From NCBI RefSeq assembly GCF_014803405.1, contig NZ_JACYFG010000051.1, forward strand, positions 434,001-498,000: a stretch of DNA of 64,000 nucleotides. The letters run 5' to 3'. Positions 12,054 to 17,052 of this stretch are shown one piece after another; position 1 is the stretch's first letter; the number at the start of each line of letters is the position of its first letter. The notes beneath the pieces were generated by a model. It searched no databases. It was given only the letters and a program-made list of their open reading frames with translations, and was not told where the DNA came from. Source of the DNA: Pelagicoccus enzymogenes (GTDB taxonomy: Bacteria; Verrucomicrobiota; Verrucomicrobiia; Opitutales; Opitutaceae). The position numbers and the translations under genes were made by a program.

Positions 12054-13904
12054 TCATCCGGCCTCCAGGGCTTGTTCTTCGCCCTCGCGGCGGAACTGGT
12101 TGACGTAGAGTTCGTAGTAGTGACCGCGTTGGGCGAGCAGCTCTTCGTGGGTGCCTTGCTCTTCGATTTCGCCTTTCTGAATAACTAGGATCTGGTCGGC
12201 TGAACGAATAGTGGAGAGCCGATGGGCGATTACGAAGCTGATGCGACCGTCGAAGACGCGTTGCATGCCGTCTTGGATGAGCTTTTCCGTTTCGGTATCT
12301 ATGGACGAGGTGGCCTCGTCCATCACGAATATTTGCGGATCCGCCAGCAGGGCTCGGGCGAAGGATATGAGTTGTCGCTCCCCGGTGGAGAGCCGAGCTC
12401 CGCCTTCGCCGATTACAGTATCGTATCCGTTTTCCAACTTCATGATGAAGTCGTGAGCATTAACCAGAGTGGCTGCTTCCCGGATTTCTTTGTCGGTGGC
12501 GTCGAGGCGTCCGTAGCGGATGTTCTCGATGACGCTACCGTTGAAGAGGTGAGGCGTCTGCAGCACGATGCCCAGCTGGCCTTGCAGCCAGTCGAGGCTG
12601 CGCTGCCGGTAGTCGATCCCGTTAAAGCGGATTTCCCCGGATGTCGGTTCGTAGAATCTGGATACGAGACTGACGATGGTACTCTTGCCTCCGCCCGAAG
12701 GTCCGACAAGGGCGATGGTTTGACCGCGCTTCACGGTGAGGTTGAAGCGTTTGAGCACTTGCTCCTTCTCGTTATAGGAGAAAGACACGTCGGCGAACTG
12801 GATCTCGTCGATGTGCTTGGGGTGGCCGTCGATGGCGAGGAGGGGATCGTGGCCAAGGTCGTTCCTGCCTGCTATTTTTTGCAGGACTTCCTCGGAGTCT
12901 TTGATTTTTGGCTCGGTAGAGAGCAGACCCATGACCCGCTCGCCGGCGGCTTGGGCTCCTTGGATTTCAGCCAGGATTTGAGCCACTTGGTTGATTGGGT
13001 GAAAGAAGTTGCCGGCGTAGCTGATGAAGGCGACGAGGATGCCGAGGGTGATGCTTCCACTAAGGACGTTGAGGCCGCCGTACCAGAGCGCGAGGCCGGA
13101 ACCGAGGCTGCCGATGAGCATGACGAGCGGCAGGTAGATGGCGCTGAAGAAGGCGCGACGCACCGAAGCGGAGTACATGTCGGTAGACATGCCTTCGAAC
13201 TCGTTGAGGTTTTCCGTTTCGCGGCCAAGGGTCTTGGTCGTTTTCACGCCGGCGATGCCTTCGTTGTAGGAGGCGGTGATGCGGGCGTTGTGCTTTCGGA
13301 TCTGACGCGAAGCGACGAGCATCTTCTTTTGGAAGTAGATGCTGAGGACGATGAGGGGCGGCAGGGTGGCGAGCACGACCAAGGCGAGCTTCCAGTGGTA
13401 GATGAACATCATGATCGACATGGCAGCCACGAAGAAGCTGCCCCAAAGCACGTCGAGAAAGCCCCACGCTAGGATGCGGGAGAGGCGGTCGCAATCTGCG
13501 GTGAGGCGCGAGATGAGCCAGCCGGTGGGTTGCTTGTCGTAGAACGAGAATTCGAGCTCTTGCAGCCGTTTGAAGCAGTCACGCTTGATGTCGAAGGCGA
13601 TATGATGGGAGATGCTGCCAGCGCAGCGAATGAAGACGTAGACTAGGGTCGCAAGGGTTAGGGAGAGTCCGAGATACCAAGCCGCAACCGGTATCAAGTC
13701 TTTGGCTACGCCTCCTCCTTGTACGATGTCGATCGCTTTCATGGTGACGATGGGATAGGCGGCGTCGATGAGGCTGAGCACGAAGGCGCTGGCCATAAGT
13801 GGATAGAGGAGCCGCTTGTGGTTGAGGGCGAAGCGGAAGATGCGTTTCCAGAGATCGATATCGATCTTGGTGGCAATGGCTTCGTTGTCGGGTGGGTGAG
13901 TCAT
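12054..13904 (-). CDS. ABC exporter subunit 2 (heterodimer, catalytic Glu intact)
   Basis: Half-transporter of 616 residues with six transmembrane segments (residues 30-330) and a C-terminal ATPase. Walker A is GPSGGGKST, the H-loop is IAHRLST, and Walker B is IFVMDEATSS with the catalytic glutamate. Its signature motif is degenerate (LSTGERQL rather than LSGGQ). Together with the upstream subunit, which has the opposite defect, this is the known asymmetry of heterodimeric exporters such as BmrCD, LmrCD and TM287/288, most of which export drugs or lipophilic compounds. Second gene of a two-gene operon, 58 bases after its partner. Confidence 0.93.
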   Translation of the reverse strand: MTHPPDNEAIATKIDIDLWKRIFRFALNHKRLLYPLMASAFVLSLIDAAYPIVTMKAIDIVQGGGVAKDLIPVAAWYLGLSLTLATLVYVFIRCAGSISHHIAFDIKRDCFKRLQELEFSFYDKQPTGWLISRLTADCDRLSRILAWGFLDVLWGSFFVAAMSIMMFIYHWKLALVVLATLPPLIVLSIYFQKKMLVASRQIRKHNARITASYNEGIAGVKTTKTLGRETENLNEFEGMSTDMYSASVRRAFFSAIYLPLVMLIGSLGSGLALWYGGLNVLSGSITLGILVAFISYAGNFFHPINQVAQILAEIQGAQAAGERVMGLLSTEPKIKDSEEVLQKIAGRNDLGHDPLLAIDGHPKHIDEIQFADVSFSYNEKEQVLKRFNLTVKRGQTIALVGPSGGGKSTIVSLVSRFYEPTSGEIRFNGIDYRQRSLDWLQGQLGIVLQTPHLFNGSVIENIRYGRLDATDKEIREAATLVNAHDFIMKLENGYDTVIGEGGARLSTGERQLISFARALLADPQIFVMDEATSSIDTETEKLIQDGMQRVFDGRISFVIAHRLSTIRSADQILVIQKGEIEEQGTHEELLAQRGHYYELYVNQFRREGEEQALEAG

Positions 13905-13962: not shown

Positions 13963-15849
13963 CTAGGCGGAGGTTGTGGTTTCGCGACCATGGTCGCCCC
14001 TGCCTTCCGTTTCTTTTGCTAGGGTGGCTTCGAGTTGGGTTTGAATAGCCCAAAGGCGACGGTAGAGGCCGTCCTCTGCGGTGAGACTTTGGTGGGTGCC
14101 GAATTGGGTGATCTTGCCGTTTTCGAGCACCACGATTTTGTCGGCGTGGGCAAGGGTGGAGAGGCGATGGGCGATGACGACCGTGGTTTGCTTACCGTGG
14201 CGGTTTTGCAGGGCGTCGATGATGGAGGACTCGGTTTCGTTGTCGACGGCGCTGAGGGCGTCGTCGAGCAGAAGGATGGGCGGGTTCCTCAATATGGCTC
14301 GGGAGAGGGCGACTCGCTGGCGTTGTCCACCGGAGAGGGTGATTCCCTTTTCGCCGATCTCAGTATCGTATCCATCGGAAAAATTTTGTATGGTTTCGTG
14401 GATACAGGCCATATTTGCAGCGGCTTCGATGTCGGATTGCTGGGCATCGCTGACGCCGAATTGGATGTTGTTGCGAATGCTGCGCGAATAGAGGAAGGGC
14501 TCTTGCAGCACGACTCCGAATTGGGCTCGAAGATAGGCTCGGTCGAGCTCCTTCACGTCCATGCCGTCAAGTTTGATGCTTCCGCTGTCGCAGTCGTAGA
14601 AGCGAAGCAGCAAGTGCATGAGGGTGGTCTTGCCCGAACCGGAGGGGCCGAGGATGGCCAGCGTTTCGCCGGGCTCGACCTGCAGGCTGATGTCTTGCAC
14701 GGTGGGCTCGGTTTCGTTGTGGGCGAAGGTGACCTTGTCAAATTCGATGCGCCCGCTCACGGGGCGATCGGGAGTGAGCGTGACTTGGTCGCCCTCTGTT
14801 TCGAAGGGCTGGGTGAGGATTTCGTTGATGCGTTGCAGGGCGACGGCGGTTTTTCCGAAGTCGGTAAGGATACGGCCGATCATGCGCACGGGCCAGAGCA
14901 CCATATTGAGCAAGGCGAGGAAGGCGAAGATCGTTCCGATCGTTACGCTGCCTTGCATGGCGAGGTAGCTGCTGGCGATGAGGGCGATACCGATTTGTGT
15001 GAGGCTGGCGATGTCGGCGACCGACCAGAACCAAGACATGATGTTGATGAGCTTGATGCTAGAGTCGCGGTATTCGGCGTTGGGCTTTTCGAATTTCGCG
15101 ATCTCGAAGTCGTGTCGCCCGAACGCCCGTACGACGCGGATGCCGGTTATGTTTTCCTGCACCACGGAAGTGAGGCGCCCTTCCGCTTCGTCCACCTCGG
15201 TGAAGAGGTGTTTCACCTTCTTGATGTAGAGGTAGCTGTAGAGGATGATGACCGGGATGAGGGCCATCGATGCGATGGTAAGGCCGACGTGCATGGAGAG
15301 CATGATGGGCAGCACGGTGGCGATGAGGATGAGCCCGCGGCCGATTTCCACGATGTGAGCCGCTAGGAAGATGCGGGTCGTCTCCACGTCGGAGGTGCAG
15401 CGTTGCACGAGGTCGCCGGTCTGGGTCTGGTCAAGGTGGCGGTTGCTCATGCGTTGGATGTGGTCGTAGAGCTGATCCTTGAGGCGTTTGCAAATGCCGT
15501 CGGAGGCCTTGGCGGCGGCCAGCTTTTGGTAGTAGTTGAAGAGACCGCCGAGAGCTGCTAAGGCCAGCATAGCCACGGCGGGGATCCAGAGGTTTTGCCC
15601 GACGCGTTGGGGACCGCCGATGAGGGTGATGACGGATTGGAGCAGCGGCTCGTCATGCTTGGGTTGGTCCATCAGGACGTAGTCGATGGTGGCGCTGCCG
15701 ATGAGGGGGATGACGAACTGGAAGGCGGTGGCTACGAACAGGGCGAGGGCTGCCCAGAGGTACATGCTGCGGAACCCGGAGATGAGGGTCCAGACGAGCT
15801 TGGGGCCAGACAAGGTTTTGCCGGAGGCGTCGTGAAGTTTTAGAGTCAT
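13963..15849 (-). CDS. ABC exporter subunit 1 (heterodimer, degenerate ATPase site)
   Basis: Half-transporter of 628 residues, six transmembrane segments and an ATPase. Walker A is GPSGSGKTT, the signature is LSGGQRQRVALSRA (canonical), and the H-loop is IAHRLST. After Walker B the catalytic Glu is replaced by Asp (ILLLDDALSAVD), marking the non-hydrolytic site of a heterodimer. The frame is open back to a TTG at 15918, but that codon lies in the terminator hairpin's T-run. I take the ATG at 15849 (MTLKLHDASG), which fits the usual exporter N-terminus. It is preceded by a leader peptide and attenuator. Confidence 0.92.
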   Translation of the reverse strand: MTLKLHDASGKTLSGPKLVWTLISGFRSMYLWAALALFVATAFQFVIPLIGSATIDYVLMDQPKHDEPLLQSVITLIGGPQRVGQNLWIPAVAMLALAALGGLFNYYQKLAAAKASDGICKRLKDQLYDHIQRMSNRHLDQTQTGDLVQRCTSDVETTRIFLAAHIVEIGRGLILIATVLPIMLSMHVGLTIASMALIPVIILYSYLYIKKVKHLFTEVDEAEGRLTSVVQENITGIRVVRAFGRHDFEIAKFEKPNAEYRDSSIKLINIMSWFWSVADIASLTQIGIALIASSYLAMQGSVTIGTIFAFLALLNMVLWPVRMIGRILTDFGKTAVALQRINEILTQPFETEGDQVTLTPDRPVSGRIEFDKVTFAHNETEPTVQDISLQVEPGETLAILGPSGSGKTTLMHLLLRFYDCDSGSIKLDGMDVKELDRAYLRAQFGVVLQEPFLYSRSIRNNIQFGVSDAQQSDIEAAANMACIHETIQNFSDGYDTEIGEKGITLSGGQRQRVALSRAILRNPPILLLDDALSAVDNETESSIIDALQNRHGKQTTVVIAHRLSTLAHADKIVVLENGKITQFGTHQSLTAEDGLYRRLWAIQTQLEATLAKETEGRGDHGRETTTSA

Positions 15850-15916
15850 GTGTCCGCGAGGAGTTGGAAGAGTTGTTTTGAACGAGGAACGGTGTCCTCC
15901 GGCTTCAAACGCGGAC

Positions 15917-15945
15917 AAAAAAAGAGGCCCGCCGTGAGGCGGGCC
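15917..15945 (-). terminator. Attenuator terminator in the ABC exporter leader
   Basis: Read on the minus strand, a perfect 8-base-pair GC stem (GGCCCGCC, loop TCAC, GGCGGGCC) is followed by TCTTTTTTT. It sits 67 bases upstream of the first exporter ATG, so it can stop transcription before the operon. Its 5' arm (15938-15945) overlaps the 3' arm of a competing hairpin. Confidence 0.85.
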
Positions 15946-15980
15946 AAGGGGATGGGAGGGAAATTGTATGCTTGGCCCGC
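15939..15980 (-). promoter_or_regulatory. Antiterminator hairpin competing with the attenuator
   Basis: A perfect 10-base inverted repeat, GCGGGCCAAG (minus strand 15980-15971) with CTTGGCCCGC (15948-15939), has a 22-base loop. Its 3' arm contains the 5' arm of the terminator, so the two structures exclude each other. Its 5' arm can alternatively pair with 15992-15997 (GGCUCG with CGGGCC), linking it to the hairpin at the end of the leader ORF. Confidence 0.7.
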
Positions 15981-15990
15981 GAATTTTGTG

Positions 15991-16028
15991 ACGAGCCTTC
16001 TGATCTGCTAAGTCCTAGAAGCGCTCGT
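15991..16028 (-). promoter_or_regulatory. Leader hairpin overlapping the leader-peptide stop
   Basis: ACGAGCGCTTCT (minus strand 16028-16017) pairs with AGAAGGCTCGT (16001-15991), leaving one bulged G, with a 15-base loop. The 5' arm covers the last codons and stop of the putative leader peptide, so a terminating ribosome would open it and free the 3' arm to pair with 15974-15979. Confidence 0.65.
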
Positions 16029-16074
16029 TCCTCATGGAGAGGAGTGGGTTGTTAATAATTACCGTGAGCTTCAT
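16015..16074 (-). CDS. Putative leader peptide of the ABC exporter operon
   Basis: A 19-codon frame, MKLTVIINNPLLSMRNERF, ends inside the 5' arm of a hairpin and is followed by antiterminator and terminator hairpins before a heterodimeric ABC exporter. This matches ribosome-mediated attenuation as known for BmrB-bmrCD in Bacillus and for erm leader peptides. No strong Shine-Dalgarno precedes the ATG, though many genes here also lack one. The rest of the 373-base gap between the exporter and gluQRS shows only the structures listed separately and a small palindrome at 16163. Confidence 0.5.
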   Translation of the reverse strand: MKLTVIINNPLLSMRNERF

Positions 16075-16162
16075 AGTCTTAAGTTTGATCAGGTGTCTGA
16101 AAAAGTTAAGTTAGGCGAATAAAGCTACGTGAATCTGTTCAGGCAAGAAAAAGTTTGTTTAA

Positions 16163-16176
16163 ACTACACTTGTAGT
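16163..16176. promoter_or_regulatory. Operator-like palindrome upstream of gluQRS
   Basis: ACTACA-CT-TGTAGT, a perfect 6-base inverted repeat, lies 45 bases before gluQRS and 88 bases before the divergent leader ORF. It may be a repressor site for either promoter. There is no direct evidence of the binding protein. Confidence 0.3.
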
Positions 16177-16221
16177 GCTCAGGGTATGACAGGTGGACGA
16201 ATGGTGAATGGTTGAAGGAAA

Positions 16222-17052
16222 ATGAAGAGTGAGTTTGGACAATATGTGGGAAGGGTAGCGCCGACTCCGACGGGTTATATGCATTTGGGGCATGCTTGTA
16301 CTTTCTTGGAGGCTCAACGGCGGGCTCGGGCAGCGGGGGGCAAGTTGCTCTTGCGTATCGAGGATTTGGATCAGGCTCGTTGCAAGGCGGAGTTCGTGGA
16401 CGCCTTGGAGGAGGACTTGGCCTGGGCGGGGTTGCGTTGGGAGCCCGAGGTGCTGCGCCAGAGCGAGCGCTTGTCTTGGTTTCGGGAGGCGCTCGGTCGC
16501 TTGCGCGAGGCGGGGGCAGTGTATCCTTGTTCCTGCTCGCGTAAGGACGTAGCGGAGGCGATTCGGGCTCCCCATGTGGAAGGGCAGGAGCCTGTCTACC
16601 CGGGAACCTGTCGGGAGCGTCGCTTCGTCTTCGGGACTGAAGCGGACGCCTTGGCTATCAACTGGCGCTTTCGGGTGCCGGATGGCGAGGCGATCGCCTT
16701 CGTGGACGGGCGTATGGGAGAGCAGCGTTTCGTGGCGGGGGAGGACTTTGGCGATTTCCTCGTATGGCGAAAGGATGGCTTCCCGTCCTACGAGCTGGCG
16801 GTGGTGGCGGACGACTTGGCGCAAGGCGTCACGGAGGTGGTGCGAGGCGAGGACTTGCTGGCGTCCACGGCGCGGCAGCTTTTGTTATACCGCGCATTAG
16901 GAGAAAAGGCACCGGACTTTTTTCATTGTCCTTTAATATTGGATACAGAGGGAAGGCGCCTTGCTAAGCGGGCTGGCTCGCTGGGGTTGCGTGAATTGAG
17001 GGCTCGAGGGACGAAGCCAGAGGACTTGCTTTCGCTTGCGGGCAGAACTTAG
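16222..17052 (+). CDS. gluQRS: Glutamyl-Q tRNA(Asp) synthetase
   Basis: Attaches glutamate to the queuosine base of tRNA-Asp. The 276-residue protein is a catalytic core of GluRS without the anticodon-binding domain. The HIGH motif is HLGH in APTPTGYMHLGH, and the KMSKS equivalent is RLAKRAG. Zinc-ligand cysteines occur in YPCSCSRKD with YPGTCR, typical of YadB. A Shine-Dalgarno (GAAGGA) precedes the ATG. First gene of a plus-strand run with a MarC-family protein 36 bases downstream. Confidence 0.95.
   Translation: MKSEFGQYVGRVAPTPTGYMHLGHACTFLEAQRRARAAGGKLLLRIEDLDQARCKAEFVDALEEDLAWAGLRWEPEVLRQSERLSWFREALGRLREAGAVYPCSCSRKDVAEAIRAPHVEGQEPVYPGTCRERRFVFGTEADALAINWRFRVPDGEAIAFVDGRMGEQRFVAGEDFGDFLVWRKDGFPSYELAVVADDLAQGVTEVVRGEDLLASTARQLLLYRALGEKAPDFFHCPLILDTEGRRLAKRAGSLGLRELRARGTKPEDLLSLAGRT

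Follow-up and report, generated by a model that had tools for sequence, protein, structure and literature searches.

The window, a stretch of 64,000 nucleotides from the genome of Pelagicoccus enzymogenes, carries on its minus strand two consecutive genes for half-transporters and, beside the putative promoter of their leader, a divergent plus-strand gene for tRNA glutamyl-Q synthetase (GluQRS) (Table 1). Both half-transporters match ABC exporters, with YheI and YheH among the solved-structure matches. Subunit 1 is 89% identical to its match in Pelagicoccus sp. SDUM812005, the nearest named relatives being Pelagicoccus; P. mobilis belongs to the class Opitutia of the phylum Verrucomicrobiota. 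An Asp after Walker B together with a degenerate signature is typical of heterodimeric exporters in which one of the ATP sites is degenerate. A preliminary description of this DNA had proposed a heterodimeric ABC exporter, which is borne out by LLLDDALS in subunit 1 and LSTGE in subunit 2. By eye, other members of the genus have similar sequence upstream, at the position of the GluQRS gene.

Followed downstream on the minus strand, the promoter-like pair precedes a leader ORF, the pairings 1:2, 2:3, 3:4 and 4:5, a T-run and the two half-transporter genes. The preliminary description had laid out this five-segment attenuator, and every element that it named was found at the bases it gave. The stems of the window were compared with 300 dinucleotide shuffles (RNAduplex), and the p-values of 0.010 (1:2), 0.010 (2:3) and 0.003 (3:4) speak against chance. 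The anatomy as first described is thus confirmed as real, and the element is single-copy in its own genome. A consensus promoter scan did not list the putative CTTGCC/TTTATT promoter; CTTGC occurs 45-85 bases 5' of the leader ATG in 43 of 47 orthologues (see below). GGAG or GAGG is absent from the 18 bases 5' of the leader start in all eight leaders of the genus. A second promoter-like site inside the attenuator (15992-15963) was considered and rejected: one such site was found where 0.4 would be expected by chance, and relatives do not share its TACAAT. An Rfam search of positions 15500-16500 gave three hits, all under the gathering score, the best being suhB with 26.8 bits against 41.

Table 1. 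Features of the exporter locus and its upstream region in the window.
Feature	Position	Strand	Description or basis
Putative promoter	16147-16118	-	CTTGCC 16147-16142, spacer of 18 bases, TTTATT 16123-16118
Candidate segment 0	16062-16083	-	hypothetical; might pair with segment 1 if the leader is untranslated
Leader ORF	16074-16015	-	ATG at 16074, 19 codons (MKLTVIINNPLLSMRNERF), stop TAG 16017-16015
AUU AUU, leader codons 6-7	16054-16059	-	Ile, 5' of segment 1; codon position
Extra hairpin within leader (Pelagicoccus)	16029-16043	-	TCCTC/GAGGA; predicted fold
Segment 1	16017-16028	-	pairing with segment 2, conservation
Segment 2	15991-16001	-	pairing with segments 1 and 3, conservation
Segment 3	15971-15980	-	pairing with segments 2 and 4, conservation
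C/U-rich linker between segments 3 and 4	15949-15963	-	TTTCCCTCCCATCCC; near-invariant in three genera
Segment 4	15939-15948	-	terminator 5' arm and antiterminator 3' arm; pairing, conservation
Segment 5 and T-run	15917-15933	-	3' part of the intrinsic terminator; terminator stem of 8 pairs, all G-C
Stem 1:2	16028-16017 with 16001-15991	-	11 pairs, one bulged G
Stem 2:3	15997-15992 with 15979-15974	-	6 pairs including one G-U
Stem 3:4	15980-15971 with 15948-15939	-	10 pairs, perfect
Terminator 4:5	15945-15938 with 15933-15926	-	followed by TCTTTTTTT to 15917
ABC exporter subunit 1	13963-15849	-	LLLDDALS (Asp after Walker B), signature LSGGQ; motifs by eye
ABC exporter subunit 2	12054-13904	-	MDEAT, degenerate signature LSTGE; motifs by eye
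GluQRS gene	16222-17052	+	divergent, beside the leader promoter; protein match

Nucleotide searches gave matches in 8 of 95 genomes (that of the window included), all within the genus, and orthologues beyond the genus were found via the exporter protein. Our sample comprised the upstream DNA of 59 exporter orthologues from the window's family. A short leader ORF was located in 52 of them, 51 within the cut and one (G038) further up. A terminator, sought only 3' of the leader, was found in 48 of the 51; its 5' arm lies 51-80 bases past the leader stop in 47 of these and 30 bases past it in G052. All four pairings are present in 47 of the 59 orthologues (46 of the 48, and G038). Among the other 12, G012 and G052 have three segments, the leader start of G213 falls outside the cut, and G048, G020 and G226 have a leader with no terminator found; the remaining six (G014, G282, G098, G101, G059 and G035) have neither a leader of this kind nor a strong terminator. 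In the three-segment form of G012 (L021) and G052 (L032), the leader end could, by eye, pair directly with the terminator 5' arm; the number of segments is again odd, and the same logic could apply.

The leaders of the 47 five-segment orthologues are 15-26 codons long. In 47/47, an ATG ORF ends within the loop of 1:2, against 1.9 expected from shuffles, a figure that is not blind, as the 47 were picked partly for having a leader. A short ORF thus overlaps the first of several alternative stems, and an antiterminator and an intrinsic terminator with a T-run exclude each other, as is expected of an attenuator. With 300 dinucleotide shuffles per searched stretch, p was at most 0.05 for stem 1:2 in 29, for 2:3 in 18 and for 3:4 in 46 of the 47, and the region around the leader stop (1:2) has a mean folding z of -2.6, with z < -1.64 in 36/47. 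The leader stop lies 5-24 bases 5' of the segment 2 core in every case, and the core starts a median of 14 bases past the first base of the stop. The front of a ribosome lies about 12 bases ahead of its A-site codon, so a ribosome at the stop would cover segment 1 and leave segment 2 free.

Covariation was measured on a 47-row MAFFT alignment, with slid controls in which the partners were shifted by 1-3 columns. In stems 1:2 and 3:4, 71.1% of cells are paired and 134 cells have changed on both sides, compared with 77 in shuffles, a comparison that kinship inflates, and with 35-83 in the slid controls, which keep kinship. Pair types vary in 1:2 (e.g. UA 15/CG 12 and AU 14/GC 12), and compensatory change lies mostly in this stem and in the inner extension of 3:4 (GGAAA with TTTCC), which occurs in only part of the family, with 45.6% of its cells paired. 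Counted by pairs, two-sided change in 1:2 and 3:4 was at the level of the shuffles (20 against 18.3, reached by 77 of 500), as it was in 2:3 and 4:5 (reached by 249 of 500), and the number of pair types was not above shuffles (reached by 17 of 500 for 1:2 and 3:4 and by 401 of 500 for 2:3 and 4:5). In 2:3 and 4:5, 95.7% of cells are paired, against 25-50% in slid controls. The core of segments 3, 4 and 5 is nearly invariant, and 2:3 changes only to G-U, with zero two-sided changes in this alignment, though both its segments are shared with other stems; such near-invariance is expected of segments held by two partners. Covariation in the three alternative stems had been named as a check, and it was found mostly in 1:2 and in the inner extension of 3:4, with no two-sided change in 2:3. 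The preliminary description had named the absence of a conserved ORF and of compensatory change as evidence against it; the ORF and two-sided changes are both present among the orthologues.

We consider it likely that the element is a ribosome-mediated transcription attenuator of the heterodimeric ABC exporter operon, turned on when elongation of the leader slows or stalls. RNA polymerase would start 5' of the leader of about 20 codons. A ribosome reaching the leader stop would cover segment 1, so that segment 2 would pair with segment 3, segment 4 would stay free, and 4:5 would form and end transcription ahead of the pump genes. If the ribosome were delayed or halted early in the leader, segment 1 would stay free; 1:2 would then form first, segment 3 would pair with segment 4, and transcription would read through into the pump genes. 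Slow or arrested elongation in the leader would be the signal; its most likely causes would be translation inhibitors exported by the pump or some other stress on translation, and the frequent Ile (AUU) codon 5' of segment 1 would act as a natural pause point. We infer the transcription start, the actual translation of the leader, its coupling to transcription, the inducer and the substrate of the pump as parts of this model. A ribosome-targeting drug as the inducer is our guess, and our preferred interpretation is that whatever slows elongation on the leader acts as the signal, with control by isoleucine as a rival.

To follow the choice between stems during synthesis, we used cotranscriptional folding with our own script, run at 30 bases/s with findpath barriers and a single, untuned set of constants. 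Over the 47 leaders, terminator formation averaged 0.73 when the stop codon occupied the A site; with codon 5 or codon 8 there, the averages were 0.26 and 0.33, respectively, and without translation the average was 0.40. The value at the stop exceeded that at codon 5 by more than 0.1 in 38/47 and was lower by more than 0.1 in 5/47 (Wilcoxon p 3e-9); compared with codon 8, six of the 47 leaders went the wrong way. When the 3' part of the leader was shuffled (one shuffle each), termination at codon 5 rose from 0.26 to 0.40 (p 0.007; a change of more than 0.1 upwards in 27 leaders and downwards in 11). In the window, simulated termination was 0.90 at the stop and 0.81 without translation. Placing codons 3-5 in the A site gave 0.00, and the Ile codons 6-7 gave 0.31 and 0.23; the values were then 0.81 and 0.90 for codons 8-9, ranged over 0.06-0.74 for codons 10-17, with read-through at 11 and 13, and were 0.91-0.95 for codons 18-19. 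This simulated curve is uneven and rough and supports the direction of the switch, not the numbers. Equilibrium folding of the 47 gave no such effect of the ribosome position on the terminator: folded to the end of segment 5, the terminator value was 0.67 without translation, 0.62-0.67 with codons -14 to -12 in the A site and 0.59 at the stop, and the late value exceeded the early one by more than 0.2 in 9/47 and fell short of it by more than 0.05 in 13/47. We can only guess at the cause: segments 1, 3 and 5 are alike, as are 2 and 4, so that equilibrium folding would mix pairs of non-neighbours. The ribosome position thus alters the choice of stem in kinetic folding but not in equilibrium folding. 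The direction of switching put forward earlier is accordingly backed by conservation, compensatory change and folding kinetics, and not by equilibrium folding.

The peptide itself shows no sign of being kept. In three subsets (22, 10 and 7 sequences) there was no excess of variation at third positions; codon positions 1, 2 and 3 vary alike, so the act of translating seems to be kept rather than the peptide, and an arrest peptide is not favoured by the sequences. The leader end SMRNERF, earlier pointed to as a stretch whose conservation was worth checking, is exact only in the window's genome (G000) and G007, and since it lies partly within the genus-specific hairpin at 16043-16029 and segment 1, likeness there can be an effect of the RNA. 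A run of control codons for one amino acid, as in trp- or ilv-type leaders, is absent from the 47 leaders, adjacent pairs being few, and no amino acid is common to them all. Ile occurs in 44/47, and an Ile codon, usually AUU, 5' of segment 1 is a new observation beyond the preliminary description. At codons -15 to -10 from the stop, 38/47 leaders have Ile (AUU in 30), as have 29 of the 32 GC3-rich genomes (exporter GC3 of at least 0.75). In these 32 genomes, Ile in the leader is encoded by AUU 29 times and AUC 11 times, compared with 110 and 986 times in the exporter gene. At codons -15 to -10, A- or U-ending codons make up 25/33 for Ile (AUA counted) and 57/148 for other codons (p 1.7e-4); the pattern was noticed after the fact and kinship inflates its p values. 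AUU or AUC cannot matter to the peptide, and the bias therefore points to codon speed, tRNA supply or openness of the RNA. From the last Ile codon (codons -15 to -9, 42 leaders), the distance to segment 1 is 6-17 bases in 34 leaders, 2-4 in four and 24-28 in four members of the genus; in the 34, the Ile codon would be close to the last pause site that leaves segment 1 free.

Pelagicoccus and its relatives have additions of their own. The linker TTTCCCTCCCATCCC, which the preliminary description does not mention, is near-invariant in Pelagicoccus and two other genera (slight deviations in G005 and G054; further copies at L017, L039, L040, L041, L139, L188, L189, L190 and L197) and absent from G015 and the remaining aligned family members, which keep the rest of the element. 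It may serve as a binding site for a protein or as the seed of a small RNA, and has one exact copy in the genome. We rejected the linker as a repeated genomic site, as 14 matches with up to two mismatches were found against 14 for a control pattern. Of the eight genus members, seven (all but G005) are predicted to fold the extra leader hairpin just 5' of segment 1, and base changes in G003, G004 and G006 keep its pairing.

A covariance model built from the 47 orthologues and searched against 252 family genomes gave hits in 57 of them, in 17 of 49 genera, the 47 being found by construction; in 195 of the 252, no exporter match reaches E <= 1e-150, a threshold that loses hits which the search had split. 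The element lies 5' of this exporter or its remains in 55/252. Of the ten further hits, two lie before an intact orthologue (G164, G279), two before orthologues already known (G213, G226) and two before other genes (G120, G255). In G054, G238, G239 and G245 (L197, L189, L188 and L190), the exporter is decayed or has an internal deletion, yet the attenuator RNA is still present in front of it and looks intact in the last three. In G054, segments 3 and 4 have changed along with the decayed exporter, as has the start codon, which argues against an independent small RNA in that genome. A class sample of 236 genomes gave six matches (G000, G022, G010, G054, G460 and G432). G460 (L198), from another family of the class, has a diverged leader copy before a 55% identical orthologue (E 1.8e-5), a score only slightly better than those of five weaker hits without such an exporter alongside (G432, second hits in G224 and G221, G120 and G255; E 4e-5 to 5e-4). 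In the G120 hit (L195:167-325), the leader has 28 codons, many of them for Tyr, Phe or Trp (MNRSAAYYFSFGFWSFYAPKSLGGCPKQ, by-eye translation), and comes with a terminator; the gene directly 3' of it has a match to 3-deoxy-7-phosphoheptulonate synthase that rests on a partial protein and falls below the curated cut-off. By its sequence, this resembles a classical attenuator for aromatic amino acids, within the same family.

Several other explanations have to be weighed. The GCGGGC and GCCCGC motifs form easily in GC-rich genomes, and five weaker model hits stand without an exporter, which would suit chance GC repeats or a gene-end terminator with no regulatory role. We find this hardly credible, because the upstream GluQRS gene is divergent, so that the terminator serves no gene end, and the shuffle, slide and ORF controls all disfavour it. 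A protein or metabolite might instead drive the terminator and antiterminator, with the ORF incidental, and the near-invariant C/U-rich linker in the antiterminator loop could be its binding site. This is improbable given the ORF with its stop in the 1:2 loop in every five-segment orthologue, the restriction of the linker to three genera while others keep the rest, and the lack of any Rfam family at the gathering score in 15500-16500.

Two further explanations keep the ribosome and alter what it reports. The leader might sense AUU decoding, i.e. charged tRNA-Ile or an inhibitor of Ile-tRNA synthetase, and not ribosome drugs, a pause at Ile leaving segment 1 free. The position of Ile and the AUU bias in GC3-rich genomes agree with it, as does simulated termination in the 38 leaders with Ile at codons -15 to -10, which is 0.28 with the Ile codon in the A site and 0.71 at the stop (31 lower, 4 higher by more than 0.1). 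We nevertheless regard it as unlikely: the codon is usually single (five adjacent Ile pairs in 47 leaders), 9/47 lack Ile there, Leu is nearly as common (34/47), and the stretch is A/T-rich in general and perhaps merely kept unfolded. A sixth segment is a possibility that we hold more doubtful than probable. In the absence of a ribosome, segment 0 would pair with segment 1; an untranslated leader would then terminate as well, and only a ribosome stalled inside it would allow read-through. The high simulated termination of the untranslated window recurs in the genus (0.61-0.96 in 7/8 members), and complementarity of segment 0 to segment 1 has p <= 0.05 in 11/47 leaders, with 2.4 expected; in the window itself, however, p is 0.21, and termination without translation hardly responds to shuffling of the first 36 bases (0.40 to 0.34 over the 47, p 0.09; 0.81 to 0.85 in the window). 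The evidence for segment 0 is suggestive only. One far-reaching speculation, to which we give a very small chance, combines these elements into a band-pass response throughout the family: with the front of a ribosome paused at AUU close to segment 1, the pump would answer failing isoleucine decoding, e.g. caused by isoleucyl-tRNA synthetase inhibitors of marine neighbours, both the untranslated (through segment 0) and the finished leader would be OFF, and the terminated RNA of Pelagicoccus, with its unpaired C/U-rich stretch, may act in trans as a small RNA.

In all likelihood, the element is a real, conserved ribosome-mediated attenuator. If so, Verrucomicrobiota have a BmrB-like attenuation of an efflux pump, built on an RNA architecture of its own that is kept in 17 of the 49 family genera covered. 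There are dozens of natural variants, with five segments, with three, as decayed copies and as the Pelagicoccus form with the extra hairpin and linker, and these would allow comparative tests of how the position of the ribosome determines which RNA structure is chosen, and could also reveal the translation stress that the exporter answers. Searches of the open-licence PMC literature gave no such system for Verrucomicrobia, Opitut- or Pelagicoccus among the matches listed, and 'Verrucomicrob' and 'Opitut' are absent from the main text of a 2010 survey of premature terminators (PMC2965389).

The closest parallel, already drawn in the preliminary description, is BmrB-bmrCD of Bacillus subtilis. 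Judged by its description in PMC4191407, the two share a leader ORF, alternative structures including a terminator and an antiterminator, and a two-subunit ABC exporter; BmrB, which controls a multidrug exporter, has a terminator, an antiterminator and an anti-antiterminator, and in its model slow translation of the leader leads to read-through. The exporter of the window is likewise heterodimeric with one degenerate ATP site, judged from motifs read by eye. The parallel holds for the logic and the kind of pump, and we claim no likeness of leader sequence. It does not hold for the layout: the three structures of BmrB lie inside bmrB, at nucleotides 60-162 (PMC4191407), whereas the terminator and its rivals are not inside the leader ORF here, which has 15-26 codons and ends in the first stem, the rest lying mostly past the stop. 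Drug induction is shown for BmrB in that source, and the present element is known from sequence and folding. The macrolide attenuator of mef(E)/mel, as described in PMC4335068, shares a leader peptide 5' of a Rho-independent terminator in an efflux operon; its antiterminator is a predicted long-range pairing of distal repeats, in contrast to the chain of neighbouring segments seen here. The toiL uORF of topAI in Escherichia coli is described in PMC12121999 as a leader on which stalling occurs at different positions, so that several classes of ribosome inhibitors are sensed; it acts on translation with Rho-dependent termination, unlike the intrinsic terminator of our element. With trp-type attenuators, as summarised in PMC4191407, the element shares the choice between alternative stems by ribosome position, and it differs from them in having no run of control codons and more segments. 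We therefore regard it as a known mechanism in a new architecture and lineage, and as an RNA family undescribed as far as open-licence PMC searches reach.
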